Shown piece by piece: positions 6,701 through 34,674 of a stretch of DNA of 64,000 nucleotides. A program made the position numbers and the translations under genes. Numbering within the stretch: position 1 is the first letter of the stretch; the number at the start of each line of letters is the position of its first letter. The DNA is from a virus: IMG/VR virus record IMGVR_UViG_3300027770_000050, positions 22,316 through 86,315 of that record; one strand, written 5' to 3'. Below the pieces are notes generated by a model that saw nothing but the letters and a program-made list of their open reading frames with translations, did not search any database and had not been told where the DNA came from.

Positions 6701-9613
6701 AAGAGCATAATAATAGTTATTTAAATCACCAGAAACTGTACTGAAAAGTTGAGTTCCATTTCTTTTAACAATTACAATATCGTTACTTACAGTATCAAGA
6801 GTTGTATTTGCTTCAAGAGTGTGTTGGATTGGAGCAATTTTAGGAAACTTACTTAAGTTTAAGAAATCAGAAGAAAGTCTTATTTCACTATCTAATGTAT
6901 ATGTTTCGGAACCTGCATTAAGTACAGTTTCAAGATCTTCAGAGATATATGAAGTTCCAGTCAAACCTGCTCTTACTCCAACTTCTGCTTGCATATAAGT
7001 TCTGTCATAGCTGAAAGTTGAACCAGCTGCGACATATCCATAATTGATATTGACTAAAGTTGGTCTTTCGTAAGGAGAAGCTAAAGTTTTATAATCTGAA
7101 TTTGATGCGAATTTTGTGTTGAAATAAAAATCTTCATGCTGAGCGAAGTAAACACTTCCAATGTTCGTGTATACAGGTCTATATATACCATTCTTGACAT
7201 GTGTGGATGCAGCACCTGACCCAATAAATACTAAAATACTTTCATTTGATTGTAATGTACTTGTGCCACTGCCAGTTTTAGATCTTACAAGACTTGATAC
7301 AGCTGTTCCAGCTGTTGTTGGAAATCCTGAATCTGTAGCTGAATAATAGATTGCTCTTACATTATATTTTTGAAAATCTTGTTCTTTCCAATCAATATCA
7401 ATTTCTTGAATGAATGATGAAGATTTGCCATCTATGCCAAAGAAATTTTCATAGTTTGCTGTTGATGAGAATGAAATTTCTGGAACAAAAATTTCACCAT
7501 AGTGAGTAGCTGCAATTGAACTTGCTTGATAAACACCTGATAATTGTTTCTTTAAATTAGGAGAAACATAGTAAGTTCCATCTGTATTAGTTGTAAGAAC
7601 ATTTGTTAAAATATCTTTTGACCAGTTGACTAATCCATCTGCAAAATCAAATACTCTTTTTGATGAGCTTCCAATAGATGATACTGCGTATATTCCATTG
7701 TTGAGTTGATTTGAGGAGTTGACTAGAACTGTCATTCCTATACTGACAGGAACATCAAAATCTCCAGGCATAATATAACTACCCGTAGAATTTCCCGTAG
7801 ACGCTTTGCAGATTACAGTAGGAGCAGATGTGATATTTACAAATGTTACTCCTATAGATCCAGCAGAAGTGTTTGACCCTAATGCATACAAGAAATATGA
7901 AGTACCAGCACCAACAGATCCATTAGAGACAGTTATTAATGCTCCTCTTTCAATACTGTAAGTGCTTGAAAATTCAAGACCTTTTATAGTTTCACAAAGA
8001 GCTGAAACACTGTAAATGCCATTTTGTGATGGATATGTTGTTTGTCCGGAAACTAAAATTCTTTGCGAAACTCCAATTCCTGGATCTGCAAAAATTGTTG
8101 AATTAACTTTTGCAAAGTCAGCAATATTTGATGTTATTATATTGGAGACTGGTTCATATGTGTAAGGATAAAATCTTTCCTGAACTGCAATGCCATCATA
8201 GTTGATAGAAAAACTGTTAGAATAAGTAGTGTTTTTACCAAGATAAAAAATATTTCCACCAATAGAGTTGGTATAGTTAGCAACTTTTATTACAGTTTGA
8301 GAAATCTCATTTGATTGATCATAAGAAGTAGATCTAGTCCACAGGTTTGATGATCCTACGGACGTGACACTGTAAATACCGCTTGCAGCATTATTGTAAT
8401 GTTTTACTAAAAGTGTATTACCAACTGTAAGAGCTGCAGTACTGCCGCTTCCAGTAGACACTATGGAAGTTGTTTGAGCAAGCACTCCCAAGCTATTTCT
8501 AAATACTGATGTTGAACCAGAGGATACTTCGTAATAATAATCTACATTTGCACGAGAGTAATTGTAAGTAGCATTTGACCATTTCAACACAGAAGTTGAA
8601 GCAGTTCCCCCCGTAAGTCCTGAACCTGAATAAAATCTAAAGTATGCTCCGCTATATGCAACTCCTGCTGTCAACACTTGTATATTGACATAATTATTTG
8701 CGTTGATATAACTTACAGCATTATCCCAAAAATCATCTGCAGCAACAGTGCTGCTATATGGATTGTATATAGTTGAACCATTAGCTTTATATAAGCTATT
8801 TACGCTATAAATTCCATTTTGTATTTTATTAGTTTGATCTTTAACTAAAATTCTGTCATTTAGTGCAAGAGTACGATTATCTATAGTGGCTGTTAAGCTT
8901 GATAATCCAGTTGCTGAAGATCCTAAATTTGTAGTTGTAGCAGCTTGTACGTCTGTAAGCTGATATATATTGTTTCTGCTAACAAATAGTACTGATGTAG
9001 TTCCGTAAGCTGCTGATTGAAATGGACTTAGATATTGGCTGTAGGTAACCCATGATGAGCTTCCTACAGCTACAATCCTACCTGCTGTAAGAATATCTTC
9101 AGCATTATTAACCGTAATAGTTCCATATCCTGCAGACGAAAGAACTTTATACAATCCATTTTCTTTAGCATCTGTCTGATTTTTTACTAGAACAATTTTA
9201 TTATTGTTCATTTGCAAACCATCAACATATTTGGCTGTAGTTAATCTTGTAACTCCAGCCAATGATGCGCTCGATAAATTTGTAGTTGTTGCTACGTCTG
9301 CGTTAGGAAGATCTGTTACTGTAAATGAGTCAAAAATAGTAAATCTTATGTCAAAACCTAAGTCTTGCAAAAGTTTTACTCCGCTTGTATTTTTAATTTG
9401 TGGATAATTCTGATCAGTGTAAATATCAGCAAATTCGTTTTCTATCCAAATTTTGACATCTTCTACACTAGAGTTTATCCACTTTAGTCTAAATAATTTT
9501 TTGTTCCAAGTTCCAGAAACATTTGTACCAAACCCAACACTAGACACTTCTCTATATGTTTCTAAACTTGGAGTTGAGGAATTTATTTCAGACCAAATAA
9601 AAGCGTGTGACAT
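3794..9613 (-). CDS. Giant NGIY-repeat structural (fibre-like) protein, 1939 aa
   Basis: This is probably a virion appendage protein. Through most of its length it repeats a module of about 60-150 residues with the core DRVLLKDQT...QNGIY followed by a W-[ST]-R-[ST]-x-D-like line (for example NVWSRSTDLD). I count about ten recognisable copies, some well kept (DRILVKDQTNKIQNGIYSV, DRVLLKDQSNKTQNGIYYV) and others decayed (NTLLVKHYNNAASGIYSV). This VLVKDQT-NGIY element with a preceding ATTTNL line is common in phage tail-fibre-like proteins. The N-terminal 110 residues (MSHAFIWSEINSSTPSLETY) are different and may be the virion attachment part. Composition is rich in Ser, Thr, Asn, Gly and Tyr with no signal peptide, as expected of beta-rich fibres. 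It is the only giant structural gene in the minus-strand block and lies directly downstream of phoH. Confidence 0.8.
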   Translation of the reverse strand: MSHAFIWSEINSSTPSLETYREVSSVGFGTNVSGTWNKKLFRLKWINSSVEDVKIWIENEFADIYTDQNYPQIKNTSGVKLLQDLGFDIRFTIFDSFTVTDLPNADVATTTNLSSASLAGVTRLTTAKYVDGLQMNNNKIVLVKNQTDAKENGLYKVLSSAGYGTITVNNAEDILTAGRIVAVGSSSWVTYSQYLSPFQSAAYGTTSVLFVSRNNIYQLTDVQAATTTNLGSSATGLSSLTATIDNRTLALNDRILVKDQTNKIQNGIYSVNSLYKANGSTIYNPYSSTVAADDFWDNAVSYINANNYVNIQVLTAGVAYSGAYFRFYSGSGLTGGTASTSVLKWSNATYNYSRANVDYYYEVSSGSTSVFRNSLGVLAQTTSIVSTGSGSTAALTVGNTLLVKHYNNAASGIYSVTSVGSSNLWTRSTSYDQSNEISQTVIKVANYTNSIGGNIFYLGKNTTYSNSFSINYDGIAVQERFYPYTYEPVSNIITSNIADFAKVNSTIFADPGIGVSQRILVSGQTTYPSQNGIYSVSALCETIKGLEFSSTYSIERGALITVSNGSVGAGTSYFLYALGSNTSAGSIGVTFVNITSAPTVICKASTGNSTGSYIMPGDFDVPVSIGMTVLVNSSNQLNNGIYAVSSIGSSSKRVFDFADGLVNWSKDILTNVLTTNTDGTYYVSPNLKKQLSGVYQASSIAATHYGEIFVPEISFSSTANYENFFGIDGKSSSFIQEIDIDWKEQDFQKYNVRAIYYSATDSGFPTTAGTAVSSLVRSKTGSGTSTLQSNESILVFIGSGAASTHVKNGIYRPVYTNIGSVYFAQHEDFYFNTKFASNSDYKTLASPYERPTLVNINYGYVAAGSTFSYDRTYMQAEVGVRAGLTGTSYISEDLETVLNAGSETYTLDSEIRLSSDFLNLSKFPKIAPIQHTLEANTTLDTVSNDIVIVKRNGTQLFSTVSGDLNNYYYALGDRVFYYSANEDLYNNTVRKSTSGVYQIVHIDNNFNYYLRKVKYNSVNGYLDFTKRLVGYSATGSTIYLARPETPTTRFTWDKKQYPDALADVYVVSTGGTIVSRTLNTNFTIDAKNGLLSISGTGWTGTLYMYLYTDTSVPKYNEDPKQLFNRYYYLPQALTYRSNLLTTTAKLSANLVEDGAYFQIVNSAGTSTTTEKKYNRDRSSWIKSYSANKNYSSHIHNIFESSSNTEYFFTQRLSSDGYYVKSGSGNTSKFTDVAADPVTRNTLGIYTGSLYLQKITNSGTAATLDNTWYSGIAFSTDSNVLVLTNKPTTSYADKIIDSGYQSSYYSDKNSLVVHDKTGKKDQKIYKFVRSEYATVGLAGTSVFAGNNFSAVYASVQNSAGYGTFCLYFDPTSSFKSTSSRSWIDISTRTIYNTSVGSTGNIPDPNNISYQGVLTPFTYIPEGSGIASTAIIDSYTVQFGDKILLKNQTDTTKNGIYTAVQNYTWTIERAPDLNATNELYELGRVSYDNRIFELNIPEDSSAYNLGSSALNTPLFWKQLGSEFTIDVVGVSTANYSGFTSIPDIINGIGVTDGDKVLFLGQTSEAERYVARVKQVSQPNLIRVGTGSSTTQFSIASLFVKDANTNKFYETYFNPSTATVGTHNVEFFQQNYLTNYTLCSFASTQNQALGLAVNISNVQIGDRVLLKDQTNNKQNGIYFVDESALFYLTRHSDLILDNQISLTKKVNVLGGNTSSGYYGLIYDETISSPGIGVTPIYFAKVNNNSFLSDVVAASTANIILTNPPATLDGVTLEKFDRVLLKDQSNKTQNGIYYVASIGSSNVWSRSTDLDTSVEVKPQITVRVSSGNTYSEDNFRIKLPLPAFLSNTVLTEYTLDTTNIDWVNTTTEAYDSSPETWQTLKAGYSNAINIGNAKLGIEQTSRSKIFGIAVKTPSVAILSANNITTNGQVRNLRFKSEYKTVKD

Positions 9614-9631
9614 TATTTATCAACCATTTAA

Positions 9632-10999
9632 TTAATTTCTTCTAGCTTCCGGTCTATTGAAAATTTCGCTTGCTACAGCAGCTAATTCAGACCTTTCAAC
9701 CTTACTTAATGTTACAGATGAAACAAGTTCACTTTTCTTTCCACCAGAAATTGCGTGAGAAAGACCATTAGATTTTGCATCAAGATAAGGATTTTCGACC
9801 TGTGAAAGGTCGCCAAGGAGGATGACTTTACTGTCTTTTCCGCATCTTTCTACAACCATCCTTGCTTCTCTAGGTGAAATATTTTCAGCTTCATCAAGAA
9901 TAATGACAGATCGTGGGATAGAACGTCCCTGAATAAAAGCCATAGCCTCTACTTCAATAATTCCATCTCTGCACATTTCTTCAAACATATTATTAGCTGA
10001 AAGAGATTTTGATCCTAAGATTTGATCAATATTATCTTTGATTGGACCAAGCCAAGCAGAGATCTTATCAAATTTATCTCCAGGCAAAGCACCAATATCT
10101 TTACCGCCAACAGGAATCAAAGGCTTCATAACAACAATTTTGTCATAGATACCTTCATTGATCATTTGTAACGCAGCTGCCAAAGCTAAGAATGATTTAC
10201 CTGTACCTGCTGGTCCAGAAAGAGTTACAAGAGGAATAGTTAGATCAGCAAGAATTTCTAAAGCACATTTTTGTTCTAAGTTTTTACCTTGAACACCAGA
10301 GTATCCTTTAGTCTCTTTTGCGTTAGATTTTTCTTTAAGAACTTTCAAAATACCTCTCTTGTATAGAGTTGGGCAAATACTTTCTCCATATTGAAATAAA
10401 ATAAATTCATTTGGATATATATCACCAAGTTTATTTACTGTATCTTCGGATAATTTTTTAAGTTCAATTTCGTTATCAGACCATAAATAGGTCCAGTCTG
10501 CTTGGCTTGTAAGTTCTAAATTTCTTAAGCCAGTATAAATTTCATCAGAAAGTTGATCAGATCTGTAATTTTCAGCTGCACATCCCCATGTGATAGCACG
10601 AATTCTCAATCCAGTATCTTTTGTAATAATTGCAACTTTTTTTCTTGGGTTTGCAGATTTAAGAGCTAAGCAGCATTCTATAATTGCGTTATCAGAGTGA
10701 ACTTTGACAATATTTGGTCGTTCGTTTTTTTGTAAAGGAGACTCTGTATTGTAGACGAACAATCTTCCTCCGAGCTCATTGATCTTCACACCTTTGAGAA
10801 GATCTTGAAGTGAATAATGTTCTAAATTTCTAAATACTTGTCTGGCTGACCATCCAACATTTTCTTTTCTTGTCTTGATGTCGTCTAAATCATCGATGAC
10901 TGCTAATGGTATGTAAATATCATTGTCACCGAATTTATATAGGGCAAGGGGATCGTGAAGTAAGACACAAGTGTCGATGATGTAAATATGCTTTGCCAA
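9632..10999 (-). CDS. phoH: PIN-PhoH fusion ATPase (PhoH2/YlaK type), 455 aa
   Basis: The protein joins an N-terminal PIN nuclease domain to a C-terminal PhoH ATPase. Proteins of this type (PhoH2) act on RNA as ATP-driven helicase-nucleases. PIN acidic residues are visible as IIDTCVLLHDP (Asp9), VIDDLDDIK (Asp36/37), HSDNAII (Asp103) and TKDTGL (Asp128). The ATPase has Walker A GPAGTGKS at 262-269, Walker B VIILDEAEN at 365-373 and GDLSQ at 396-400. The length is normal for PhoH2. The start appears to be TTG at 10999: a GAGGAG ribosome-binding site lies 9 bases upstream, and the only nearby ATG is out of frame and stops after five codons. PhoH is frequent in marine phages but its role in infection is unsettled. 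The gene lies between the J-domain gene and the giant repeat gene. Confidence 0.93.
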   Translation of the reverse strand: MAKHIYIIDTCVLLHDPLALYKFGDNDIYIPLAVIDDLDDIKTRKENVGWSARQVFRNLEHYSLQDLLKGVKINELGGRLFVYNTESPLQKNERPNIVKVHSDNAIIECCLALKSANPRKKVAIITKDTGLRIRAITWGCAAENYRSDQLSDEIYTGLRNLELTSQADWTYLWSDNEIELKKLSEDTVNKLGDIYPNEFILFQYGESICPTLYKRGILKVLKEKSNAKETKGYSGVQGKNLEQKCALEILADLTIPLVTLSGPAGTGKSFLALAAALQMINEGIYDKIVVMKPLIPVGGKDIGALPGDKFDKISAWLGPIKDNIDQILGSKSLSANNMFEEMCRDGIIEVEAMAFIQGRSIPRSVIILDEAENISPREARMVVERCGKDSKVILLGDLSQVENPYLDAKSNGLSHAISGGKKSELVSSVTLSKVERSELAAVASEIFNRPEARRN

Positions 11000-11028
11000 A
11001 TTATTGGTCTCCTCGCATTTTTGTTGAT

Positions 11029-11034
11029 ATTATA
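11029..11034 (-). promoter_or_regulatory. Possible -10 box for phoH
   Basis: A TATAAT lies on the minus strand 30 bases before the TTG start of phoH, within the 75-base gap after the J-domain gene. No convincing -35 box is found 16-18 bases upstream, where the sequence is A-rich. The box is inside a near-palindromic AT run, so chance occurrence is possible. Confidence 0.3.
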
Positions 11035-11074
11035 ATCACAGTATTCTTTTCTTTTTTATGCTTGGTGAGCCCTA

Positions 11075-12079
11075 CTAAAAAGGCAAGTCTGGTTTATCTG
11101 ATACAGCTTTTATAATCTTATGTTTATCAATATTATCAATAAAATCAGCTGCATTTTCATTCATTGTGGTTTCAAATTTTCTAATATTAAAAATTTGGTC
11201 TAGTTGTGACTTGTCAAATTCTTTTAATTTATCTGTTTCCATCCACTTTGTTTCAGTCACATTTGCAAGATTTTTATTTAATTTATTTAGTTTGCCGTCT
11301 TTAAAAAGTAAAAGATCTCCCGATAATAAACTGTCTAAATAACTATGCGCATTATCAAGATTAGTTGTTTCAAGAAGATTTTGATCGTTATATAAAACTT
11401 TAGTAATGCTAGCATTGGTCAAGATATTTCCCGTAGGACTTAGTACTTGTGTATTATCTCTTACAAAACACAAACTAGCTTTTGGTATACAAATATAAAT
11501 CTTAAATGGTAATGCATGTTCTACATCAGAACTATCTGACAATCTTAGAACTTCATTTTCATCATTTACTATTGATATTACAAGTTTTGATTTGTTATCT
11601 GTATTCTTGATTACAAAATCCCATTCATAGTTGTGCTCATTAGAAGTTGGATAAAATGCTGGTACTAAATTTAATTCTTCTTTTCTTTCACATAATTTCA
11701 AAAATAAACTAAATCCAATGCTATCTTCTGGAGTACCTTTGCGATATGTTCCTACTTTACTCCAATCAACATCAAAATCACTTTCTAAGCTTCCAATAGT
11801 AAATTCATCAAAGAAACCTTGATCATAAATTTTTTTTAGAATTGGATCTTCAAGTATTCTTCTAGCTCTAACAATATCCAAAAACGCTTCATTAGACCCA
11901 CCAAAATCAGGGTGACATTTTCTAGCTCTTTTTCTAAAAGCACTTTCTAGTATTTGAGAAGTCTTAACTCTCTCATCTCTAGATTTACCACTTGGCAAAT
12001 CAAGTTTATCAATATCTAAAATCTCATAATAATTCTTATTGAAATCGATTATTTTCTTTGGATCAAATTCATTTGACAT
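11075..12079 (-). CDS. J-domain (DnaJ-like) protein, 334 aa
   Basis: The first 90 residues form a J domain: NYYEILDI opens helix I, a charged insert follows (LPSGKSRDERVKTSQ), then AFRKRARKCHPDFGG with the diagnostic HPD at residues 56-58, and finally RARRILEDPILKKIYDQG. J domains stimulate the ATPase of Hsp70 (DnaK) and deliver clients to it. The remaining ~240 residues do not resemble the Gly/Phe, zinc-finger or substrate domains of DnaJ and are unrecognised. The protein is therefore a class III-like J protein that probably brings a phage-specific partner to host DnaK. It is the first gene of the minus-strand block, divergent from the gene at 12115 with only 35 bases between them. The J-domain call is strong; the partner is unknown. 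Confidence 0.85.
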   Translation of the reverse strand: MSNEFDPKKIIDFNKNYYEILDIDKLDLPSGKSRDERVKTSQILESAFRKRARKCHPDFGGSNEAFLDIVRARRILEDPILKKIYDQGFFDEFTIGSLESDFDVDWSKVGTYRKGTPEDSIGFSLFLKLCERKEELNLVPAFYPTSNEHNYEWDFVIKNTDNKSKLVISIVNDENEVLRLSDSSDVEHALPFKIYICIPKASLCFVRDNTQVLSPTGNILTNASITKVLYNDQNLLETTNLDNAHSYLDSLLSGDLLLFKDGKLNKLNKNLANVTETKWMETDKLKEFDKSQLDQIFNIRKFETTMNENAADFIDNIDKHKIIKAVSDKPDLPF

Positions 12080-12114: not shown

Positions 12115-12594
12115 ATGTGGTACAAATTTGCTCAGACTCATCCTTATATTGAAAAAGCTATAGATAGATTTAATCTAACAAAGGATCCTAATAAAGCTGG
12201 ATATGTATTATCTGACGGTAAGATGTTGGATTTTTCAGATGGTCATGATGTCAGAGACCTTACTCATGACAGTGTTTTTGAAGTCATGCCTATAATGCCA
12301 GATATAGAAGATGGATATACAAATTTTCATAAACAATATGTTGTTCCATTTATGCAAAGCACTGATAGTATAAGAATTTCTAAAGATGGAAATGACTTAA
12401 GCGTTGAAATACACACAATTCCATCTAAAGAACAAATAATCGCTATACAAAAAAGTATAAACAAAGGTGACAATTTCTTTTACGAAATACCTATGCTTCC
12501 AAATGATCCTGGTGGCGCAATATATGATACTAATCCATCATATATTGGAAAATGGTTGACAGATATCAAAAACGTCATGATTGGAAAAAAATAA
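12115..12594 (+). CDS. MWY-start hypothetical protein, 159 aa
   Basis: I do not recognise a family. The protein begins MWYKFAQTHPYIEKAIDRF. This N-terminus recurs in three neighbouring genes (12596, 13067 and the minus-strand gene starting at 14968), each starting ATGTGGTA. The rest is soluble and moderately acidic, with DGHDVRDLTHDSVFEV and a C-terminal segment DPGGAIYDTNPSYIGKWL. No clear Shine-Dalgarno sequence precedes the start, only A-rich sequence. It is the first of three consecutive plus-strand genes, with a 1-base gap to the next start, so they are likely co-translated. Confidence 0.75.
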   Translation: MWYKFAQTHPYIEKAIDRFNLTKDPNKAGYVLSDGKMLDFSDGHDVRDLTHDSVFEVMPIMPDIEDGYTNFHKQYVVPFMQSTDSIRISKDGNDLSVEIHTIPSKEQIIAIQKSINKGDNFFYEIPMLPNDPGGAIYDTNPSYIGKWLTDIKNVMIGKK

Positions 12595-12595
12595 C

Positions 12596-13066
12596 ATGTG
12601 GTACAAAACTGCTCTCAAGGGACATAAAACTTACTATGATTTCAATGATCTTAGTTATGAATTGAAACAAGTTTCTGACACTGATGATAGTGATTGGAAG
12701 CATTCTGGAACAAGAATGAGAATAATATCATATGTCTTAAATGCATATGATTTAGAACATATGGATAAAGATAAACCAGTTGGGAAAATGCATTTAGACT
12801 TAGATTTCTATAGTTCTGGTAAAAAACAAATATATATCAAATTAGTCAGAACTGATGATTACCATGAAGGGATGGGTGTAGCTTCTAATCTTTATAAATG
12901 GCTTAAATATAATTATGAGAATTTTGATAAACCAGAATATTTAGTTAGTAATCCAATCAATCCAGCCGCAGAAAGAATTAGAGAAAAAATATTAGGAAAA
13001 CCTCAAAGTTTGTATCCTATGCGTGAATATGATTTAGATTATTCTCAAGGAAAATTGGATATTTAA
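12596..13066 (+). CDS. Possible GNAT-fold N-acetyltransferase with MWY start, 156 aa
   Basis: The central part resembles the acetyl-CoA binding segment of GNAT acetyltransferases. A beta strand (IYIKLVRTD) runs into YHEGMGVASNLYKWLK at 89-104, fitting the (R/Q)xxGxG/A loop and helix, and NPINPAAERIREKI at 119-132 resembles the late NxxAxxxYxK motif. The first motif position carries Glu or His instead of the usual Arg/Gln, so activity is uncertain. I start the gene at the ATG at 12596 (MWYKTALKG) rather than at an in-frame TTG at 12581, because the ATG keeps the MWY N-terminus of its neighbours and avoids overlap with the gene before. The substrate is unknown. The alternative is an unrelated alpha/beta protein. 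Confidence 0.6.
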   Translation: MWYKTALKGHKTYYDFNDLSYELKQVSDTDDSDWKHSGTRMRIISYVLNAYDLEHMDKDKPVGKMHLDLDFYSSGKKQIYIKLVRTDDYHEGMGVASNLYKWLKYNYENFDKPEYLVSNPINPAAERIREKILGKPQSLYPMREYDLDYSQGKLDI

Positions 13067-13492
13067 ATGTGGTATCGAGAAGCAGTAACATATAATCTCC
13101 TTGGTCAACTCACCGAAGGTAATCCAAAGAAAAAGATTATTAAACAATTTGTTGATGATGAAATTGATGATCTCAATATTGAAGATCAACAAGATGATCA
13201 AACTGAGGAACCCACTCAAGAAGCACCAGAGTTTACTCCAGTTCCTACTAATATTCCCCCAGCAACAGACACACCTGCTGGAGTTGCAAATAGAGAACCA
13301 ATTCAAGTTCAACTACCAGCTAATTTTAAAGTTCCACCATTGCATGAATTTTGTCATTGTGAAATAAATACATTGCCTAGCGGAAGACAAATTTGGAAAC
13401 TTGGCAATGGGGAAATGCACTGCTCAGAATGTGTTATGAATAGAGATTTGTTTAACAGATCAAATGAATTAGCTTACAGAAATATTACGTAA
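13067..13492 (+). CDS. MWY-start protein with MuF-like cysteine-rich C-terminus, 141 aa
   Basis: Three parts are visible: an MWYREAVTYN start, an acidic and Pro/Gln/Thr-rich linker (residues 30-80, EEPTQEAPEFTPVPTNIPPA), and a compact C-terminus. The C-terminus carries VPPLHEFCHCEI (Cys96, Cys98) and MHCSECVMNRDLFN (Cys119, Cys122). PLHxxCxC resembles the C-terminal PxHPNCRC signature of MuF-type minor head proteins, but here it stands without the MuF helical domain. The CxC...CxxC arrangement could bind one zinc. The start follows the preceding stop directly (TAAATG). The last 8 bases overlap the 3' end of the convergent gene at 13485. Function is unknown; a small head-associated protein is one possibility. 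Confidence 0.7.
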   Translation: MWYREAVTYNLLGQLTEGNPKKKIIKQFVDDEIDDLNIEDQQDDQTEEPTQEAPEFTPVPTNIPPATDTPAGVANREPIQVQLPANFKVPPLHEFCHCEINTLPSGRQIWKLGNGEMHCSECVMNRDLFNRSNELAYRNIT

Positions 13493-14680: not shown

Positions 14681-14968
14681 TCATTTTTCTTTGAACATCT
14701 CGCTGACTTTCTTTTCAATTAATGGCATCAATTCTAAACCTGGTGCTGCATTTCTTACATTACCAAAAGTTTGATATTCTTCTATTAGCATATCTCTAAA
14801 TCTTGCGAGATATCTACTCACCATTATGTCAGTGGGATTGTATATACGCTTTTGTAAAAAAAGTTTCATCAAAATAACTTTTTTAGCATCTGACATTATG
14901 ATTTTTTCTTCATAATCTGGAAAACTTTTGTCATCTTTATCTTTTCTATTTAAAGCTTGATACCACAT
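14681..14968 (-). CDS. MWY-start small helical protein, 95 aa
   Basis: A short, charged, largely helical protein starting MWYQALNRKDKDDKSF. It shares the MWY N-terminus and the ATGTGGTAT start codons with three plus-strand genes nearby although it lies on the opposite strand. Helices are suggested by VSRYLARFRDMLIEEYQTFG and LMPLIEKKVSEMFKEK. No known domain is recognised. The ATG lies one base after the stop of the upstream 77-aa gene. Confidence 0.7.
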   Translation of the reverse strand: MWYQALNRKDKDDKSFPDYEEKIIMSDAKKVILMKLFLQKRIYNPTDIMVSRYLARFRDMLIEEYQTFGNVRNAAPGLELMPLIEKKVSEMFKEK

Positions 14969-14969
14969 A

Positions 14970-15203
14970 TTATTTTTCTATCTTCAAGTCTTGTACGTGA
15001 ATTTCATTGTAGGCAAAAGCTACATTTTGGCTTGGAACGTTGAATAAACATATTGACATTTTCTCATCTTTGTAAATAGTATAGAAATCTTTATTTACAA
15101 TAAGAACTCCTTCAATATGTCCAATTAAGGTATTTGGATTGTAAGTTTGAATCTTCCATTTTCCAAATCCTCTATTTTGTGAATTATTATCAATAATTGC
15201 CAT
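14970..15203 (-). CDS. Hypothetical protein, 77 aa
   Basis: A small protein (MAIIDNNSQNRGFGKWKIQT) that looks beta-rich (LIGHIEGVLIVNKDFYTIYK, then NVAFAYNEIHVQDLKIEK). A good ribosome-binding site (GGAGGAGAG) lies just upstream of the ATG. It is the first gene of the minus-strand operon and is divergent from the ClpX-like gene, with an 81-base gap that must hold promoters for both directions. No family is recognised. Confidence 0.7.
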   Translation of the reverse strand: MAIIDNNSQNRGFGKWKIQTYNPNTLIGHIEGVLIVNKDFYTIYKDEKMSICLFNVPSQNVAFAYNEIHVQDLKIEK

Positions 15204-15237
15204 ATCTCTCCTCCAGATATCTATAGTATTATTTTAT

Positions 15238-15268
15238 TCGACACTTATTTCCTACCTAGATGTATAAT
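15238..15268 (+). promoter_or_regulatory. Possible promoter for the clpX-like gene
   Basis: A perfect -10 TATAAT (15263-15268) stands 16 bases before the ATG of the ClpX-like gene in the divergent gap. The best -35 candidate TCGACA (15238-15243) is 19 bases away, longer than ideal. The -10 is convincing and the -35 weak, so activation by a phage factor is possible. A predicted start near 15275 would leave a leader of only about 10 bases. Confidence 0.4.
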
Positions 15269-15284
15269 AAAAATAGGTAAATAT

Positions 15285-16652
15285 ATGTCAAAAAAGTCCC
15301 TTGCCAAAACAGTATGTAATTTTTGTGAACGTCCAGCTAGTAAAGAAGTTATCACAGATATTGAAGTATTAAGCGAATTATTGACGGGTAAAAGCTTAAA
15401 TATTTCTTTATGTACTTTTTGTTTTCAAAGTTATCTTGCTGGAAATAAATTTGGACAGATGCAAGTACATCAAAACATTCTTTCTATGATTATAAACGCA
15501 GATGAAAAAGCTAGTGTTTTGTCTCTCAAAGAAAGGATCGCTGAAGTTGCTCCTGTATCTAAAAGACATCTTTTTGGTTTAAATAATTACAGACTGAAGA
15601 ATACTAGTCCACACGAGCTTTATGAGGCTTTGGAGAAAAAAGTAGTTGGACAAGATTTAGCTAAGAAAAGATTAAGTATTGCTGTTTACGAACACATAAG
15701 AAATATTATCAATGAAGATGTTTCAGAAAAGCAAAATATTTTGTTCCTTGGTCCTTCTGGTAGTGGAAAAACATTAATTGTAAATACAATCTCAAGTCAC
15801 TTAGAAGTTCCATTTGTTTCTGGAGATGCAACTTCTTTTTCTCCAACTGGTTTTCAAGGTAGTGATGCTGATAGCTGTATTACTGATCTTTTAATCAAAG
15901 CTAATGGTGAAACATCTTTAGCTGAAAAAGGTGTTGTTTTTATTGATGAAATTGACAAATTGGCTTCATCTCATAATTCTGCAACAAGATTAGAAAGTTT
16001 TCATTATTCTACTCAATCAACATTGTTAAAGTTAATTGAAGGCAAAAAAGTAAAGATAAATCCAAATGCTCTGGGTGAACAAACAACATTCCCTTACGTT
16101 GTAGACACTTCTAAAATCTTATTTTGCTTTGGTGGAGCGTTTAATCATTTAGAGAAAATTGTAGCTAAAAAGTTAGGTTTATCTGAAGGCTCAATTGGTT
16201 TTAGAAAAAATAATAAGTTAGAATACGAAAACCAAATAAAAAACTATGAAATTTACAACAATGTCTCACACGATGTTCTTGTTGAAAGTTTAATTGAATA
16301 TGGATTAGCTACTGAATTTGTTGGAAGATTGCAGTCTATAGTTCCTCTTGTTCCATTATCTAAAGAACAAATGCTATATTGTTTGAAAGATTTAGATAAT
16401 TCTCCAATAAAGAAAACTATTTTATTGTTTGCTGAATCAAATGTAGAAGTTGAATTTGATGAAAAATATTTTGATGCAGTTGTAGAAAAAGCTATTAAGT
16501 CTGGAACTGGAACTAGAGCTCTTAATTCAATTGTTAAATCATCAATTTCACAAGCAGCTTTTAGTTTATTAGGAAAAGTTAACTCAAGCAGGAAGCATAT
16601 TGTTTTAACAGAAAAATGCGTTTCTAATCCTAATGAATATTTGACACTTTAA
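15285..16652 (+). CDS. clpX: ClpX-like AAA+ protein unfoldase with zinc domain and IGF loop, 455 aa
   Basis: The protein follows ClpX along its whole length. An N-terminal zinc-binding domain has C11-C14 and C43-C46 (CNFC, CTFC). The AAA+ core has Walker A GPSGSGKT at 156-163, Walker B VVFIDEIDKL at 217-226, the VDTSKILFCFGGAF segment, an EFVGRL arginine finger at R348 and a sensor-2 GTGTRAL with R411. It keeps SIGF at 303-306, aligned with the IGF loop by which ClpX docks on ClpP. The pore loop is GFQG (189-192) where bacterial ClpX has GYVG. The RKH loop before VDTSK is replaced by NPNALGEQTTFPY, so substrate choice has probably changed. It likely unfolds selected proteins and may feed them to host ClpP. 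No clpP is in this window. Confidence 0.93.
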   Translation: MSKKSLAKTVCNFCERPASKEVITDIEVLSELLTGKSLNISLCTFCFQSYLAGNKFGQMQVHQNILSMIINADEKASVLSLKERIAEVAPVSKRHLFGLNNYRLKNTSPHELYEALEKKVVGQDLAKKRLSIAVYEHIRNIINEDVSEKQNILFLGPSGSGKTLIVNTISSHLEVPFVSGDATSFSPTGFQGSDADSCITDLLIKANGETSLAEKGVVFIDEIDKLASSHNSATRLESFHYSTQSTLLKLIEGKKVKINPNALGEQTTFPYVVDTSKILFCFGGAFNHLEKIVAKKLGLSEGSIGFRKNNKLEYENQIKNYEIYNNVSHDVLVESLIEYGLATEFVGRLQSIVPLVPLSKEQMLYCLKDLDNSPIKKTILLFAESNVEVEFDEKYFDAVVEKAIKSGTGTRALNSIVKSSISQAAFSLLGKVNSSRKHIVLTEKCVSNPNEYLTL

Positions 16653-16689: not shown

Positions 16690-17751
16690 ATGACTGATCC
16701 ACTAGAACAAATAATTTTACAAGCTGAAAAAATTGTTAAAGAAAATAATAAAGTTTATCAGTTTACTAAGATATCTCAATCTCAAACAGCTTTTGCAATA
16801 AGAGCGAGAAATACAGCTGGTGATTTTACTTCATTTTTGACAGTAAGAGGAACTTCCGATGAAGCTAGCTGGGAAAGAGCTTTTTATGGTCAAGGTTGGA
16901 TGGATGTAAATGTTCATCCAACACTATTGACAGGATCAATTACAATAGCATCAGTACCATCAGCAGCCACTACTCCAGGAGATGCAGCGTTTACTCAAAG
17001 ATCTTTTTCAGGAACTGCAACATCAGTTTCGGTTAAGCCATTCAAAAATTTCGATCCATTATTTTCTGTTCCAGGAATTGGACTGAGACGCTTCACTCCT
17101 GTTGCACACACCCCAACAACTCCATATGGTGTAAGTAGTTCTGATAATGATATTCAATTATACTTTATGGGATTGAGTAACGATCAAAAATACGAAATGA
17201 GATGGGAAGGTGGTAATTTTATGAGTTGGTGGAATGAAAGAGCAGCAAGAGCCGCTGCCCCTTCAAATTCAACTAGTCATCCACATTCTGTTCCTCAATC
17301 TCCAGAAGCAGTTGCTGCATTTGCTCAAAAAATTCCTTTTAAGCGAGTTCCAGGATATGACGAATTCTTGAAATTAATGAGAAAAGTCAAGAGTGGAACT
17401 GGAGCTACGGCATTAGATATATTACCTGATGAAGCTCTAATTGATGAATATGAAAGCAGAACAGGCAACACAGTCCAAACTGTTTTTGCACTAGGTAGAG
17501 AGCGAATTATGAAGTTTAGGGATTACGATAGACCTATAATGATAAAATCACTCGAAAATTTACGATCTGCTTTAAAAGTTCAAGAGGATTATGAAACAGC
17601 TCAAAGTGCAGAAGATAGAATTGATGAAGATGCCAAAGGTCGAGCAGATACTTTCAAAAATAAAGTAAATGAAATTACCGGATTGGCAGGTGGTTTTTTA
17701 GGAGCTATTTCTGACGAAAAAAACCGCATAAAGGGAGATTATAGACCATGA
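16690..17751 (+). CDS. Hypothetical protein, 353 aa
   Basis: No family is recognised. The N-terminal ~65 residues look like a mixed alpha/beta domain (LEQIILQAEKIVKENNKVYQ, then AIRARNTAGDFTSFLTVRG). Residues ~75-160 are Ser/Thr/Pro-rich (TGSITIASVPSAATTPGDAA). The C-terminal half is helical and charged, with ESRTGNTVQTVFALGRERI and LENLRSALKVQEDYETAQS. It begins 37 bases after the ClpX-like gene and its stop overlaps the next start (ATGA), forming a run of three coupled genes. Linker-rich composition and neighbours ending in proline-rich tails would fit virion or assembly proteins, but this is inference. Confidence 0.75.
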   Translation: MTDPLEQIILQAEKIVKENNKVYQFTKISQSQTAFAIRARNTAGDFTSFLTVRGTSDEASWERAFYGQGWMDVNVHPTLLTGSITIASVPSAATTPGDAAFTQRSFSGTATSVSVKPFKNFDPLFSVPGIGLRRFTPVAHTPTTPYGVSSSDNDIQLYFMGLSNDQKYEMRWEGGNFMSWWNERAARAAAPSNSTSHPHSVPQSPEAVAAFAQKIPFKRVPGYDEFLKLMRKVKSGTGATALDILPDEALIDEYESRTGNTVQTVFALGRERIMKFRDYDRPIMIKSLENLRSALKVQEDYETAQSAEDRIDEDAKGRADTFKNKVNEITGLAGGFLGAISDEKNRIKGDYRP

Positions 17752-18422
17752 AAAAAGAAGCAATATATCCTGGTGGTAGAGCAGCATTTGTTCGTCAACT
17801 TCTTAATGCAACTTTAAATCCTCAAGCAATGTCTGATTTTTTCACTAAACCTGAAGGGTTTCAAAGAATGTTAGATTTGGGATTTACCAACTGGGCAAGC
17901 TTAGCTACAGCTTTAGGTGGACATGACTACAAACCTCAAGAAATGGTTGGTATGCAAGAAAATCCTGGATATAGAATACCGGGTTTAGACCCAGCAGCAG
18001 AAACAGACTTAGCTGCTGGAGGTTTTGATTACTTAGGTCCTCACTCTCCTACTGTTCCATCTTCAACACCACGCCCTTCTGGAATTGCACCAGAACCTGA
18101 TCCTGATGTTTATTATGAAAAATTAGGGTCAGGAAATAAAAAGTTTAGATTAGCAAATCAACCTACTCCTGAACAACCAGCCCAAGCTGAAACATCAAAA
18201 CCTCCATTACCAGGTTGGACTTTTGAAGATTTAGTTGCTTCTTTGAAAAAAATTGAACGGTCTCAGCAATTATCAGAGGAAGCTAAGGTTCAAAATTATA
18301 AAAGAATACTTGATGAATATAGTAGTAGCATGCGTCCATTGAGAAATTGGTTGTCTCAAAATGGTATTTCTTCACAGCAGTTAAAAGGCATAGCAAATGA
18401 AGCTGAGAAAAGACGTAAATAG
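17748..18422 (+). CDS. Hypothetical protein, 224 aa
   Basis: An unrecognised protein starting MKKEAIYPGGRAAFVRQLL, with an N-terminal helical region (LNPQAMSDFFTKPEGFQRML) followed by a Pro-rich middle (TVPSSTPRPSGIAPEPDPDV) and a helical C-terminus (LKKIERSQQLSEEAKVQNY). The ATG overlaps the preceding stop (ATGA). It ends with TAG, an ordinary stop here, inside the start region of the next gene (26-base overlap). Close coupling of three genes suggests that their products work together. Confidence 0.75.
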   Translation: MKKEAIYPGGRAAFVRQLLNATLNPQAMSDFFTKPEGFQRMLDLGFTNWASLATALGGHDYKPQEMVGMQENPGYRIPGLDPAAETDLAAGGFDYLGPHSPTVPSSTPRPSGIAPEPDPDVYYEKLGSGNKKFRLANQPTPEQPAQAETSKPPLPGWTFEDLVASLKKIERSQQLSEEAKVQNYKRILDEYSSSMRPLRNWLSQNGISSQQLKGIANEAEKRRK

Positions 18423-19302
18423 TTTATTAAAAATATCCGATAAACTTGATAAAGAAGGTAAATATACACTTGCTGACAGTGTATTTAATTTGCTTAAAAT
18501 TTCTCAGTTTTCTCCAACTCCAACACAGTTGCCAACTACACAAGTTAATTTACCTGAAAGCTTGAGACCATTCTTGAGTCCAGACACATTTCAGGATAGC
18601 GTATTAGTTAATAAAAATGTTATGAGGCAAGTAGATGCTCCGTACGCAAGCAAGTTTGGTCCTGATACTCCATTAATTTTCAATACATTAACTCCAACTC
18701 AATATGCTCAATTAGAAAGCTCAGGAAACTTACAAAAAATACTTGACATACAAAGTGCTCAAGGTGCTGCTGCTCTTAAATATTTAGCTTCAACAGGAGC
18801 TGATGTTCAAGGATTAGGAGCTTTAATTGGACAATGGTCTAAAGCTCCTAATCAAAATAATAAAGTTGTTGTTGAAAATGCTATTGCAACTTCAGTGTCT
18901 CAAGCAGTTGTTGATGGTTTGTCAGCCATAACAACCAACAGAAATAAATTTAATTTCAATGAATGGCAAATGAGATTGAACGAAATATCTGGACAAATAA
19001 ATAGATATCCACCAACTTTAGCTTCAGCAATATCCCAGGGAATCAACACGGGACTTAGAAGACAAATAAATAAGTTGTCAACTCAAAATCCTGATGTTTT
19101 GAGAAGATCTATTTCTCCATCCAACCCTGACTGGATGTCATTTGCTAGTACACATGGTTTGTCAAGCTTTACATCACAGTTTGGTTCAGGTCCAGTTCCT
19201 GCAGCTGTACCGAAACCAGCAACTAAACCAGGAGCACCAACAACTCCAGACACAGAAGCTACTCCTGGGAATAAACCTATTTCTGGAGAACCAGCAGTAT
19301 AA
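18397..19302 (+). CDS. Hypothetical protein with N-terminal LD-G-Y-AD helical motif, 301 aa
   Basis: The N-terminus VNSLLKISDKLDKEGKYTLA is the clearest copy of a short helical motif (hxxxLDxxGxYxxAD) also found at the C-terminus of the 203-aa protein at 2641 and the N-terminus of the 102-aa protein at 21143. A long helical region follows, rich in Gln, Asn and Ser (RPFLSPDTFQDSVLVNKNVM), and then a Pro/Ala/Thr-rich tail (AAVPKPATKPGAPTTPDTEA). The start overlaps the previous gene by 26 bases. An alternative start is not obvious because the motif begins so soon after the ATG. Function is unknown. Confidence 0.75.
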   Translation: MKLRKDVNSLLKISDKLDKEGKYTLADSVFNLLKISQFSPTPTQLPTTQVNLPESLRPFLSPDTFQDSVLVNKNVMRQVDAPYASKFGPDTPLIFNTLTPTQYAQLESSGNLQKILDIQSAQGAAALKYLASTGADVQGLGALIGQWSKAPNQNNKVVVENAIATSVSQAVVDGLSAITTNRNKFNFNEWQMRLNEISGQINRYPPTLASAISQGINTGLRRQINKLSTQNPDVLRRSISPSNPDWMSFASTHGLSSFTSQFGSGPVPAAVPKPATKPGAPTTPDTEATPGNKPISGEPAV

Positions 19303-19326
19303 TCTTATTGACTGTATAAAATATGC

Positions 19327-20094
19327 ATGTCAGATTTATGCCCTTTATATTTACAAGAAAAAAGCTGTCTCTTAAAATTAGTTTCAAATTCTACAATTAC
19401 TTCAGTTTTATCTAAAATAGACCTTGAAGTGATTAACAATACTTGGAACCTTGATTGTGAAGGCAGCTTGTCTAATTGTAGTTTTAAAAGTCCAAGTGAG
19501 CAAGTTTTTCAAAATGTAGAACCTGAGAAACCTGTTGTAGAAGAGGAAAAACCAGAAACAAAAATTCCTCAAGAAACTACTAAAGTAAGTATTCATATTG
19601 TTAAGAATCCATATCTAGTAAAATCTGATGTTCTTTTTTATCCTACCAATATAGCTTTAACAATTGACGATCCATTGTTGATGAGATTATCATTTGGAAA
19701 AATTCAAGAAGAATGTGATACTTTCAAGAAGCCATACAAAATGGGCACTTTGTATATCACTTCTAATGGTGGAGAAAATTCTAAAGTACAAGCCAAACAT
19801 GTTTATCATTTAACAGTCTCAGGTGTAAGTAGATTAGTTAATGAGGGAGATGTAAAGTCTGCTTTGAGAAAAGCTTTAGATATGGCAGACACAAATAACG
19901 CTAGAAATGTTGTCATGCTCCCTGCAGATTGCGGAACTCATGACATAAATGACATTGCTAGAGTACAGCTATCTTCTATCAAAACTTATTTATCAACACA
20001 TAAAAATTGCAAAATAAAAAACGTTTTTATTGTAATGGAAGACAAGGAAAGCTATCAAGTGTTCGAAGAATATTATAATAGAATTTTTGATTGA
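19327..20094 (+). CDS. Macro-domain-like protein with Cys-containing N-terminus, 255 aa
   Basis: Residues ~85-250 follow the order of a macro (ADP-ribose binding) domain. A strand leads to SDVLFYPTNIAL (the usual D-xxVN-xAN position), then a helix (FGKIQEECDTF), GTLYITSNGG, AKHVYHL (usual hVIHxVxP), a helix with ALRKALDMADTNNARNVV, MLPADCGT (usual fPaISTG), and a last helix with IKTYLSTHK. The glycine-rich loop and ISTG loop are altered, so ADP-ribosyl hydrolase activity is doubtful and ligand binding uncertain. Cysteines at 5, 14, 44 and 51 before the domain could form a zinc site. Macro domains reverse or read ADP-ribosylation, and a phage could use one against host ADP-ribosylating defences. 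No Shine-Dalgarno sequence precedes the ATG. Confidence 0.6.
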   Translation: MSDLCPLYLQEKSCLLKLVSNSTITSVLSKIDLEVINNTWNLDCEGSLSNCSFKSPSEQVFQNVEPEKPVVEEEKPETKIPQETTKVSIHIVKNPYLVKSDVLFYPTNIALTIDDPLLMRLSFGKIQEECDTFKKPYKMGTLYITSNGGENSKVQAKHVYHLTVSGVSRLVNEGDVKSALRKALDMADTNNARNVVMLPADCGTHDINDIARVQLSSIKTYLSTHKNCKIKNVFIVMEDKESYQVFEEYYNRIFD

Positions 20095-20108
20095 GGTAGT
20101 TTGCACTT

Positions 20109-20453
20109 ATGGAAAATAATGAAGAATACGCAAGTCCATCGAAACTACTGATGGGCATTTTAGATACTTTTATAGCTCCTACTTGTATAGTAGATGATTG
20201 TGATAACTGTATTATGAATGAATTGGCTAAAGAATTATACGATAAAGGTTTTGATGTTCCCGGATATTCTTTACGTACTAAAAATGGTTCAACATCAACA
20301 TTTTTTCATAAAGGTAAAAAGTATTTTATCAATAAAAAAGATATGAACCACGGTACAAAAAGTTTTTTATGCACTATTGAACTTGAAGATGAAACTATTT
20401 TAAAATTGAAAAAATCTTCTGATAAGTTGAAAGAAGTTCTTAGTGTCCTCTAG
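20109..20453 (+). CDS. Hypothetical protein, 114 aa
   Basis: A small unrecognised protein starting MENNEEYASPSKLLMGILDT. Cysteines near the N-terminus (APTCIVDDCDNCIM) give a CxxxxCxxC group that might bind metal. The middle is basic (FFHKGKKYFINKKDMNH) and the C-terminus helical. GAGGTAG lies 9 bases upstream of the ATG. It sits between the macro-like gene and a membrane-anchored coiled-coil gene in the same direction with gaps of 9-14 bases, so it is probably part of that transcript. Confidence 0.7.
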   Translation: MENNEEYASPSKLLMGILDTFIAPTCIVDDCDNCIMNELAKELYDKGFDVPGYSLRTKNGSTSTFFHKGKKYFINKKDMNHGTKSFLCTIELEDETILKLKKSSDKLKEVLSVL

Positions 20454-20462
20454 GGTAGCCTC

Positions 20463-20921
20463 ATGCAAGAAGAAAATAACATTGGGATAGAGCAACTTAA
20501 AAGCGTCTACAAAGCACATACTGAAGCGTACCTTGATTTCAATATGGCTTTGATCAATATTATATCTAATCAAAAAGAATTAATAAGTAAAGTTGAAACT
20601 CTCAAGTCTATTTCAGATGAAGAGTTTAGAAATCTTGCTAAAGAATATGCTGTTTTAGAAAAATTATTTGAAAACTTCCAATCAACTCAATTAAAAAGAG
20701 ACAATGAATTAGAAGAAGTACAAGTTGAATATACTGCTCAAATTTCAAACTTTGGAACAGATATTGAAGAAGTAAAATCTGAGTTAAAGCAGATGAAAAA
20801 AATCTATTGGGATATTAAAAACAATATCAACAAAGCATGGTGGACTATTGGTGGAGTTATAGCTTTCTTAACTGCTATCCAATTAATTACTGGTAAAGGT
20901 ATTGTAGATTTTCTAAAATAA
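20463..20921 (+). CDS. Coiled-coil protein with C-terminal membrane segment, 152 aa
   Basis: Residues ~1-120 form long amphipathic helices with heptad-like spacing (SDEEFRNLAKEYAVLEKLF; EEVQVEYTAQISNF; EEVKSELKQMKKIYWDIK). They are followed by one membrane segment at ~126-143 (AWWTIGGVIAFLTAIQLI) and a short tail. This C-terminally anchored coiled-coil layout resembles XhlA-type membrane proteins and some holin-associated proteins, and a lysis or membrane-tethering role is possible. A holin or spanin cannot be claimed: there is one membrane segment and no lipobox. The stop overlaps the ATG of the next gene by one base (TAATG). Confidence 0.75.
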   Translation: MQEENNIGIEQLKSVYKAHTEAYLDFNMALINIISNQKELISKVETLKSISDEEFRNLAKEYAVLEKLFENFQSTQLKRDNELEEVQVEYTAQISNFGTDIEEVKSELKQMKKIYWDIKNNINKAWWTIGGVIAFLTAIQLITGKGIVDFLK

Positions 20922-32630: not shown

Positions 32631-33314
32631 ATGGGAACTAAATATAGTCCAAGAATAGTCTCCAGTGGATTATTAGCATATTTTGATGCTGCTAATACAA
32701 GAAGTTATATCGGATCTGGAACAACTGTAAATGGTCTCATAAGTGGAATAGGATTTACATTAGTCAACGGTGTAGGTTTTGGTTCTACTAATAACGGACA
32801 TTTTATTTTTGATGGAATTGACGACAATATACCATTTTCAATACCTAGTCCTGGCACAATTTTATCAATTGAAATGTGGGTAAGAGCAAAATCATTTTCA
32901 AATAATGGAATGTTTTTTGGATTTAATATTTATGATGTTTGGACCGGAAATGGAGGATTAGGATACAACACTGGTGCTTCTGATGTTTATGGATTGACAT
33001 CAACTCAAGTGACTAATCTTGACCTTCTCAATCAATGGAAACATTATGTCTTTGAAATGAGAAGTGATGTAGCGTATACAAATAATAAAATTTATGTTAA
33101 TGGAGAAAATCAATCTTTATCACAAGTTTCAGGTTCTGAAAGTGCAGCTAATAGAAATTTCAATAGTGGTAATGGAAGAATAGGCAGTTGGCTTTCTTCT
33201 AATAATTTTTTTATGGCAATGGATCATTCTCAATTTAAAGTTTACAACAGAGCTTTAACAGCTGCAGAAATAGTACAAAATTATAATGCTACAAAAAGGA
33301 GATATGGATTGTAA
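32631..33314 (+). CDS. LamG-like lectin-fold protein, array member 2 (227 aa)
   Basis: A beta-sandwich protein of the same family with YFDAANTRSYIGSG, GHFIFDGIDDNIPF, LSIEMWVRAKSF, IYVNGENQSL and FKVYNRALTAAEIVQNYNA, ending KRRYGL. Compared with its neighbours the central lines differ (DVWTGNGGLGYNTGASDVYG), which is where ligand-contacting loops of this fold lie. A 3-base gap follows gene 1, and its TAA overlaps the ATG of member 3. The predicted role is surface glycan recognition; the actual ligand is unknown. Confidence 0.82.
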   Translation: MGTKYSPRIVSSGLLAYFDAANTRSYIGSGTTVNGLISGIGFTLVNGVGFGSTNNGHFIFDGIDDNIPFSIPSPGTILSIEMWVRAKSFSNNGMFFGFNIYDVWTGNGGLGYNTGASDVYGLTSTQVTNLDLLNQWKHYVFEMRSDVAYTNNKIYVNGENQSLSQVSGSESAANRNFNSGNGRIGSWLSSNNFFMAMDHSQFKVYNRALTAAEIVQNYNATKRRYGL

Positions 33315-33988
33315 TGGGACTAGGACATTCTCCTACAATTATCACTGATGGATTAGTGTTTTCTTTAGATGCTGCTAATTCTAGAAGTTACAGTGGTTCT
33401 GGAACTTCTTGGTATGAAATAAGTGGAAGTGGTAGCACAGCAACATTATCAAACAGTCCTACATTTTCTTCTATTAATAACGGAGGATTTATCTTTAATG
33501 GATCAAATCAATATGCTACAGTTCCAACAGCAAGTAGATTTGATTTTTCAACAGGAAGTACCACCGTTACGGCTTGGTTTAAATTAACATCTTCAGGTTA
33601 CAATTGTATAGTATCTAAAAGAAATGGTACTGGTTTTCAGCTTTATTCTTTATCAGGAAAATTGTATGCGGATGGTGCTGGAACTGCAGGTAAATCTTCT
33701 TCTCAATCTGTTAACACTGGAAATATATTTTATGGAGCTGTAGTTTATGATAGAGCTTCATCTTTAATGCGACTTTATATAAATGGCGTAGAAGATGGAA
33801 ATGTTGCCCTAGATTCTACAACACTTACAGACGTAGCTGGTGTAAATGTTGGAAGAGCTACTCTTGGCGGCGGTTCTTCAGACTATTTCAATGGCACTAT
33901 TTATCAAGTACAAATTTACAACAGAGCTTTATCAGCTACAGAAGTCAAACAAAATTACAATGCTACGAAAAGAAGGTTCGGATTATAA
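33314..33988 (+). CDS. LamG-like lectin-fold protein, array member 3 (224 aa)
   Basis: The shortest member of the array. Family lines: VFSLDAANSRSYSGSG, GGFIFNGSNQYATVP, TTVTAWFKLTSSGYN, VVYDRASSLMRLYINGVEDG and IYQVQIYNRALSATEVKQ, ending KRRFGL. The RASSLMRLYINGVEDG line is the classic LamG strand pair. The start overlaps the stop of member 2 by one base and no other start would fit the conserved MG N-terminus. An AAGAAGG purine run inside the end of its own reading frame precedes member 4 and may serve as its ribosome-binding site. Confidence 0.83.
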   Translation: MGLGHSPTIITDGLVFSLDAANSRSYSGSGTSWYEISGSGSTATLSNSPTFSSINNGGFIFNGSNQYATVPTASRFDFSTGSTTVTAWFKLTSSGYNCIVSKRNGTGFQLYSLSGKLYADGAGTAGKSSSQSVNTGNIFYGAVVYDRASSLMRLYINGVEDGNVALDSTTLTDVAGVNVGRATLGGGSSDYFNGTIYQVQIYNRALSATEVKQNYNATKRRFGL

Positions 33989-34674
33989 TGGGCATTGACG
34001 TAGGACCTATCGAAGTTACTGATGGATTGATATGCCAATTTGATCCAGCAAACTTTAGAAGTTATTCTGGCTCTGGATTAACCTCATATGGTTTGGTAGG
34101 GGGTATTGGAGCAACTCTTGTCAACGGGACTGGATACACTTCTGATGGCGGAGGAAGTTTTGTTTTTGATGGTACTAATGATTATGTTATCACCTCTGCA
34201 AACGTTGGACCTTTAGGAGCAAATCCACGAACAATCTGTATTTGGTTTTATATTCCAAGTGCTCAAAGTAAAAATGTTTATGGATATGGGCAAGGAACTA
34301 CAGGATCGATATTTGACATAATAACTTGGGATAACAGTGGATATAACAGAGTAATTGGACATTATTGGTCCGGTGGATATGACACTATAGGAACCTTGCC
34401 ACCAAGAAATACCTTAAATGTTCCTGGATGGAATTTTGTAGTCCATACTTATAATGGAAGTGCAGTATCATTATATACAAATACAGTTTTTTCTAATTCT
34501 ACTAATTTAAATCTTACTACTTTGGATGGACCTTTAACTTTAGGAAAAGGTACATATAATGGCTATGATCATTTTACAGGTAAAGTTTCAAACATTCAAA
34601 TCTATAACAGAGTACTGACTGATCAAGAAATGTTACAAAATTTCAACGCTACAAAAGGGAGATATGGATTATAA
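33988..34674 (+). CDS. LamG-like lectin-fold protein, array member 4 (228 aa)
   Basis: Family lines: ICQFDPANFRSYSGSG, GSFVFDGTNDYVITS, RTICIWFYIPSAQS, WNFVVHTYNGSAVSLYTN and VSNIQIYNRVLTDQEMLQ, ending KGRYGL. The middle of the sandwich (WDNSGYNRVIGHYWSGGYDT) is unique to this copy. TAATG overlaps join it to members 3 and 5. Translation of the whole array is probably sequential, with ribosomes re-starting at each overlap. Confidence 0.82.
   Translation: MGIDVGPIEVTDGLICQFDPANFRSYSGSGLTSYGLVGGIGATLVNGTGYTSDGGGSFVFDGTNDYVITSANVGPLGANPRTICIWFYIPSAQSKNVYGYGQGTTGSIFDIITWDNSGYNRVIGHYWSGGYDTIGTLPPRNTLNVPGWNFVVHTYNGSAVSLYTNTVFSNSTNLNLTTLDGPLTLGKGTYNGYDHFTGKVSNIQIYNRVLTDQEMLQNFNATKGRYGL

Follow-up and report, generated by a model that had tools for sequence, protein, structure and literature searches.

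The clpX-like gene and its surroundings

The window analysed here, a 64,000-nucleotide stretch of the viral record IMGVR_UViG_3300027770_000050, carries at positions 15285..16652 (+) an intact ORF with an ATG start coding for a 455-aa ClpX-like AAA+ unfoldase. The NCBIfam profiles PRK05342 (E = 3e-79, 266.8 bits, cut-off 359) and TIGR00382 (E = 7e-72, 242.7 bits, cut-off 370.75) recognized the protein as ClpX far above chance, yet neither curated equivalog cut-off was reached. The solved structures closest to it by sequence were all ClpX (3.5e-57 for the E. coli protein), and a Foldseek search with its AF2 model returned ClpX/ClpXP entries as top matches, with a target-normalised TM of up to ~0.84. 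The model was of moderate quality (mean pLDDT 76.5), and its low-confidence segments included the pore-1 loop (residues 186-193) and the IGF loop (302-311), as expected if these parts are flexible. An identity as HslU was rejected, as the HslU profile gave 98 bits (cut-off 362) versus 267 bits for ClpX. Judged from profiles, structural relatives and alignments, the gene was filed as ClpX-type and assigned to a divergent GFQG subfamily rather than to ordinary ClpX.

The motifs were located by alignment with E. coli ClpX. The core of the zinc-binding domain, C11-x2-C14 ... C43-x2-C46, is encoded at 15315..15422 (+); its second CxxC is preceded by an insertion and followed by a clade-specific linker (GNKFGQ region). 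Walker A GPSGSGKT (residues 156-163, 15750..15773), Walker B VVFIDE (residues 217-222, 15933..15950), the arginine finger R348 (E. coli R307, 16326..16328) and sensor-2 R411 in GTR (E. coli R370, 16515..16517), all encoded on the plus strand, complete the set of motor motifs of the HslU/ClpX group. This agrees with the initial annotation, made from the letters of the DNA, which had described a phage ClpX keeping its zinc domain and motor motifs. The ClpP-docking tripeptide IGF (residues 304-306, 16194..16202, +) satisfies the family consensus [ILMV]-G-[FLY]. The same annotation had taken SIGF (303-306) for the docking loop; the IGF part stood, and the serine lies outside the tripeptide. The surrounding residues 302-311 had pLDDT values below 50 and were placed outside the packed core, so that the model suggests a flexible loop and gives no sign of the burial of SIGF that the annotation had named as speaking against its proposal.

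A DnaJ-domain protein (11075..12079, -) and a PIN-PhoH protein (9632..10999, -) were syntenic with clpX throughout the clade described below, in which the gene order was a large virion protein, PhoH, DnaJ, small minus-strand genes and then clpX as the first gene of a plus-strand run. The order in contig G017 was the most divergent. Co-directional genes followed clpX at 16690..20921 (+), the first ones variable and the later ones encoding conserved proteins of 255, 114 and 152 aa; the most variable genes of the run were those adjoining clpX. The 255-aa protein gave a weak Macro match, and no isolated phage matching it was found. According to PHROG matches, virion and tail-fibre genes flank clpX on both sides.

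Several other genes were observed in the same record. Its locus L251 (G000:C1) encodes, at 14955-16649 and 10862-11845, an Hsp70/DnaK (PF00012, E = 1.6e-162) and a full second DnaJ, and at 8677-9630 a subtilase-family protease (PF00082, E = 5e-58) adjoining a 2865-aa ORF. The window itself contains a phage-encoded DNA gyrase B subunit (415-2541, -), seven genes of 224-236 aa arranged in tandem, either adjoining or overlapping by one base (32631-37466), the first of which matches a virion structural family, and an ORF (53796-64000) that exceeds 3400 aa and is still open where the window ends.

The GFQG clade and its substrate loops

Scanning IMG/VR revealed ten contigs with relatives of the window ClpX (47-69% identity), and two more, G017 and G018, were recovered with a DNA pattern for PTGFQG[SA]D; three further matches to this pattern (L218, L224 and L227) were short non-ClpX frames and were discarded. 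The resulting clade comprised the window sequence and ten further distinct sequences from 12 IMG/VR contigs of up to 379 kb, 11 sequences being full-length. The 11 distinct GFQG sequences were monophyletic with a support of 100/100 and a long stem. Pairwise dN/dS values for clpX, approximate since dS was at least 1.5, ranged from 0.06 to 0.17, which indicates that the gene is under purifying selection in the clade. On these values and the invariant motifs, a pseudogene or relaxed constraint was rejected for the window clpX. Sequencing error and decay were ruled out as sources of the loop changes, since these were fixed across the 11 distinct sequences.

The motor motifs were intact in 11/11 distinct clade sequences. 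In five members (L007, L009, L010, G017 and G018) the zinc site was CxxC..CxxH, the last cysteine being replaced by histidine, and this conservative replacement argues that the zinc domain is functional. The docking tripeptide was IGF in the window protein and in most of the clade; the consensus failed in L009 (VSL) and G018 (ISL), and elsewhere the loop was kept as IGF, VGF or IGL.

The substrate loops differed from those of E. coli. The pore-1 loop GFQG (residues 189-192, 15849..15860, +), aligned with E. coli GYVG 152-155, lies within an SPTGFQG stretch present in all 11 distinct clade sequences; none had the family-typical GYVG (GYIG), the aromatic residue being retained. The position of the E. 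coli RKH triad (228-230) reads GEQ in the window protein, the loop standing there being NPNALGEQTTFPY (residues 259-271, 16059..16097, +), and RKH occurred in 0/11 clade sequences. Both substitutions had been noticed in the initial annotation, and the alignments bore them out. Cryo-EM and mutagenesis assigned ssrA binding by E. coli ClpX to Y153, V154, T199, V202, R228 and H230 (PMC7652416). At these six positions the window protein has F, Q, T or an ambiguous residue, a changed residue, G and Q, respectively. Throughout the clade Y153 was replaced by F and V154 by Q, and R228 and H230 were changed, so that at least four of the six ssrA-binding residues were altered in every member; T199 was possibly preserved by a TR or SR pair in most of them, the gap placement being ambiguous. 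As the contact residues were changed clade-wide, it is a well-founded prediction from the alignments that these proteins no longer read ssrA in the E. coli manner.

Among the 94 phage ClpX proteins outside the clade that were used for comparison, GYVG was found in 92, RKH in 59 and GFQG in none. The bacterial set (loci L137-L216, the best 80 of a GTDB scan) had GYVG or GYIG in all cases, many members lacking RKH (e.g., SKN), and GFQG in none; six GFQG entries grouped with the bacteria were viral loci, numbered above L216. The loss of RKH, shared with many other ClpX proteins, is therefore neither rare nor family-defining, whereas GFQG is rare. No bacterial member of the GFQG clade was found among these best 80 GTDB loci, PTGFQG[SA]D being among the scan patterns. 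The window protein is best read as belonging to a phage-only ClpX subfamily of uncultured very large bacteriophages. ClpX of jumbo phages is already known; for the GFQG subfamily no published report was found in the open-licence literature, where searches for phage-encoded ClpX or ClpP variants yielded only general jumbo-phage papers.

ClpP and other partner genes in the clade

A search for a phage clpP, proposed with the initial annotation, found no ClpP in the window's own 86,315-bp record, which stops before the interval where ClpP lies in its relatives, and revealed the gene in three of these. As the window contig ends ~47 kb downstream of clpX, the missing ClpP there says nothing. Proteins of ~190-199 aa with the Ser/His/Asp triad in place were encoded in G004 (358 kb), G017 (347 kb) and G010 (166 kb). 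In G004 and G017, ClpP lay on the strand of clpX, ~80 kb downstream of it, and in G010 it was 101 kb away on the opposite strand. The three proteins were 64-77% identical to each other and 45-51% identical to E. coli ClpP, were separated from every other sampled ClpP (100/100) and branched in the same order as the corresponding ClpX proteins. Compared with E. coli ClpP, the docking cleft was changed at F82 (T in two) and I90 (T in three), with L48, Y62, L114 and a hydrophobic residue at 189 kept.

The clade contigs are metagenomic and labelled linear, and the absence of ClpP from any of them is never a proof. Contigs G001, G002, G003, G006, G007 and G009 stop near clpX on the ClpP side, and G005 keeps the gene order of G004 and ends ~9 kb before the position of the G004 ClpP. 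G008, in which the only ClpP-like protein is a divergent S14 protein shared with G010, also stops short of the interval. In G018 (379 kb) no ClpP was detected even at E = 10, though two genes located near ClpP in G004 are present, and the contig seems to cover the interval. It is the only long ClpP-less genome apparently spanning it, and its docking tripeptide is degraded (ISL). The contig of L009, in which VSL arose as an independent change, is too short to judge ClpP. Small as the numbers are, the pattern fits a loss of docking accompanying the loss of ClpP.

The ClpP-like protein of G008 and the second copy of G010 formed a separate divergent S14 group (24-26% identity to E. coli ClpP); they were left out of the count of ClpP partners. 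These proteins (G010:C1:146336-146977, +; G008:C1:294139-294789, -) have an intact triad, are 51% identical and share their gene order. Each genome encoded one AAA_2 unfoldase, and no second partner of the ClpX/ClpA/ClpB type was found, which leaves the phage ClpP without another phage-encoded Clp partner of that kind. In a search of clade records other than G017 and G018, no tmRNA that could provide a private ssrA tag passed the Rfam cut-off, the sole one to do so being in G011, outside the clade. No SspB adaptor was found, and ClpS was present only in G017.

Possible roles and relation to known systems

The probable interpretation, held with moderate confidence, is an ATP-driven ClpX hexamer that uses a code other than ssrA and ancestrally feeds a phage ClpP. 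Members of the phage-only subfamily would form a hexameric unfoldase of the ClpX type, whose channel loops, devoid of the ssrA-reading residues, would thread another set of substrates through the pore, gripped by the phenylalanine of GFQG. The IGF-type docking loops would hand the unfolded proteins to a ClpP ring, most likely phage-encoded and lying ~80 kb downstream of clpX, beyond the contig end. Hexamer formation, docking, degradation and the loss of ssrA recognition are all predicted, and the window's own phage would presumably encode the ClpP. The finding that three clade genomes containing the interval encode a canonical phage ClpP makes this protein probably a likelier partner than that of the host. 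Against it count the altered docking-cleft residues, the ClpP-less record of the window and the VSL of L009. As G018 keeps clpX without ClpP, one has to suppose for it either a ClpP-free role or the use of host ClpP despite the altered tripeptide. Should the pair prove functional, these phages would have a complete regulated protease of their own.

Rather speculatively, the proteins might constitute a self-sufficient phage ClpXP using a private recognition code, in which the GFQG, RKH-less channel would read a degron not recognized by host ClpX. If so, chosen proteins, either assembly proteins of the phage or host proteins, could be unfolded or degraded without competing for the ssrA-tagged traffic.

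Proteins that otherwise differed were found to start with MWY[K/R/Q]xA or a close form. In the window, such proteins are encoded at 12115-12594 (+), 12596-13066 (+), 13067-13492 (+) and 14681-14968 (-), and MWY-type starts also occurred at many places in L001-L010, G004, G005, G008, G010 and G018. They were seen in 31/858 ORF-like segments of clade DNA versus 4/2032 in other ClpX-bearing phage loci. The pattern ATGTGGTAYMR occurred 69 times in ~2.4 Mb of clade records (5 for the reversed-pattern control) and 11 times in ~3.0 Mb of other records (control ~20), with no enrichment of the motif in G017. The motif may be an N-terminal sorting, packaging or degradation tag; it is a long shot that a phage ClpXP handles MWY[K/R]xA, which is often found beside clpX, as its tag. 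No paper on the MWYK motif was found in the open-licence literature.

ClpX is able to remodel the MuA transposase complex without degradation, and the clade proteins could likewise be ClpP-independent chaperones that unfold, translocate or disassemble virion proteins. The clade-wide position of clpX, next to DnaJ and PhoH and flanked by large virion genes, the DnaK and second DnaJ of the same genome and the ISL-bearing clpX of the ClpP-less G018 are consistent with such a role, and a survey of 2021 proposed that jumbo-phage ClpX acts as a translocase or in virion assembly (PMC7824862). However, a ClpP-independent role does not explain why IGF, VGF or IGL is retained and ClpP is co-inherited in G004, G010 and G017, and is considered unlikely.

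The docking on host ClpP put forward in the initial annotation, by which this protease would be redirected to other substrates, be they host or phage proteins, was weakened by the ClpP genes of G004, G010 and G017 and the ISL of the ClpP-less G018, and now appears improbable. In its favour, IGF is kept in the window protein and most of the clade, the 86-kb record has no ClpP and most bacteria carry one. However, a phage ClpP is present in the long clade genomes covering the interval, G018 being the sole exception, and there the docking consensus is gone. Nothing indicated a host-derived target, the conserved neighbours of clpX being phage virion and chaperone genes, and the targets named as examples in the annotation, host defence or regulatory proteins, are a matter of speculation. 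A decoy role, in which the protein would occupy host ClpP or mis-couple it with no productive work of its own, would account for a kept docking loop beside changed substrate loops, but is very improbable given the catalytic motifs and pore aromatic residue fixed under purifying selection and the phage ClpP of the relatives.

Most work on the specificity loops of ClpX has relied on mutants of a few model enzymes. The GFQG clade is a natural subfamily that fixed another solution at pore-1 and the RKH position and kept it as its members diverged to ~47% identity or less. G004, G010 and G017 offer ready-made ClpX/ClpP pairs for studying a change of degron code.

The window protein shares with E. 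coli ClpX (PDB 6WRF/8E91/8ET3; ~34% identity) the fold, the zinc and AAA+ domains, Walker A/B, the arginine finger, sensor 2 and an IGF-type docking loop. It differs in having GFQG instead of GYVG, no RKH triad, xSTQST in place of the GEGVQQ helix start, a pore-2 loop 1-2 residues shorter, an insertion in the zinc domain and a longer linker. Like the ClpX of Agrobacterium phage Atu_ph07 (gp2), phage G, Pseudomonas phage PA5oct and Lak phages, it is phage-encoded. Some jumbo-phage genomes with ClpX also encode ClpP, e.g., Atu_ph07 (PMC6102473), and roles in virion assembly or replication control were suggested for these proteins (PMC7824862, PMC6102473, PMC11242549). Most of the other phage ClpX proteins aligned were 45-57% identical to E. 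coli ClpX. The window protein was ~36% identical to those of isolated phages and belonged to another clade. Human mitochondrial ClpX, which is not a phage protein, has unrelated loop sequences. HslU (ClpY) belongs to the same AAA+ group, but the window protein, unlike HslU, has a zinc domain and an IGF loop and no insertion of the size of the I-domain.
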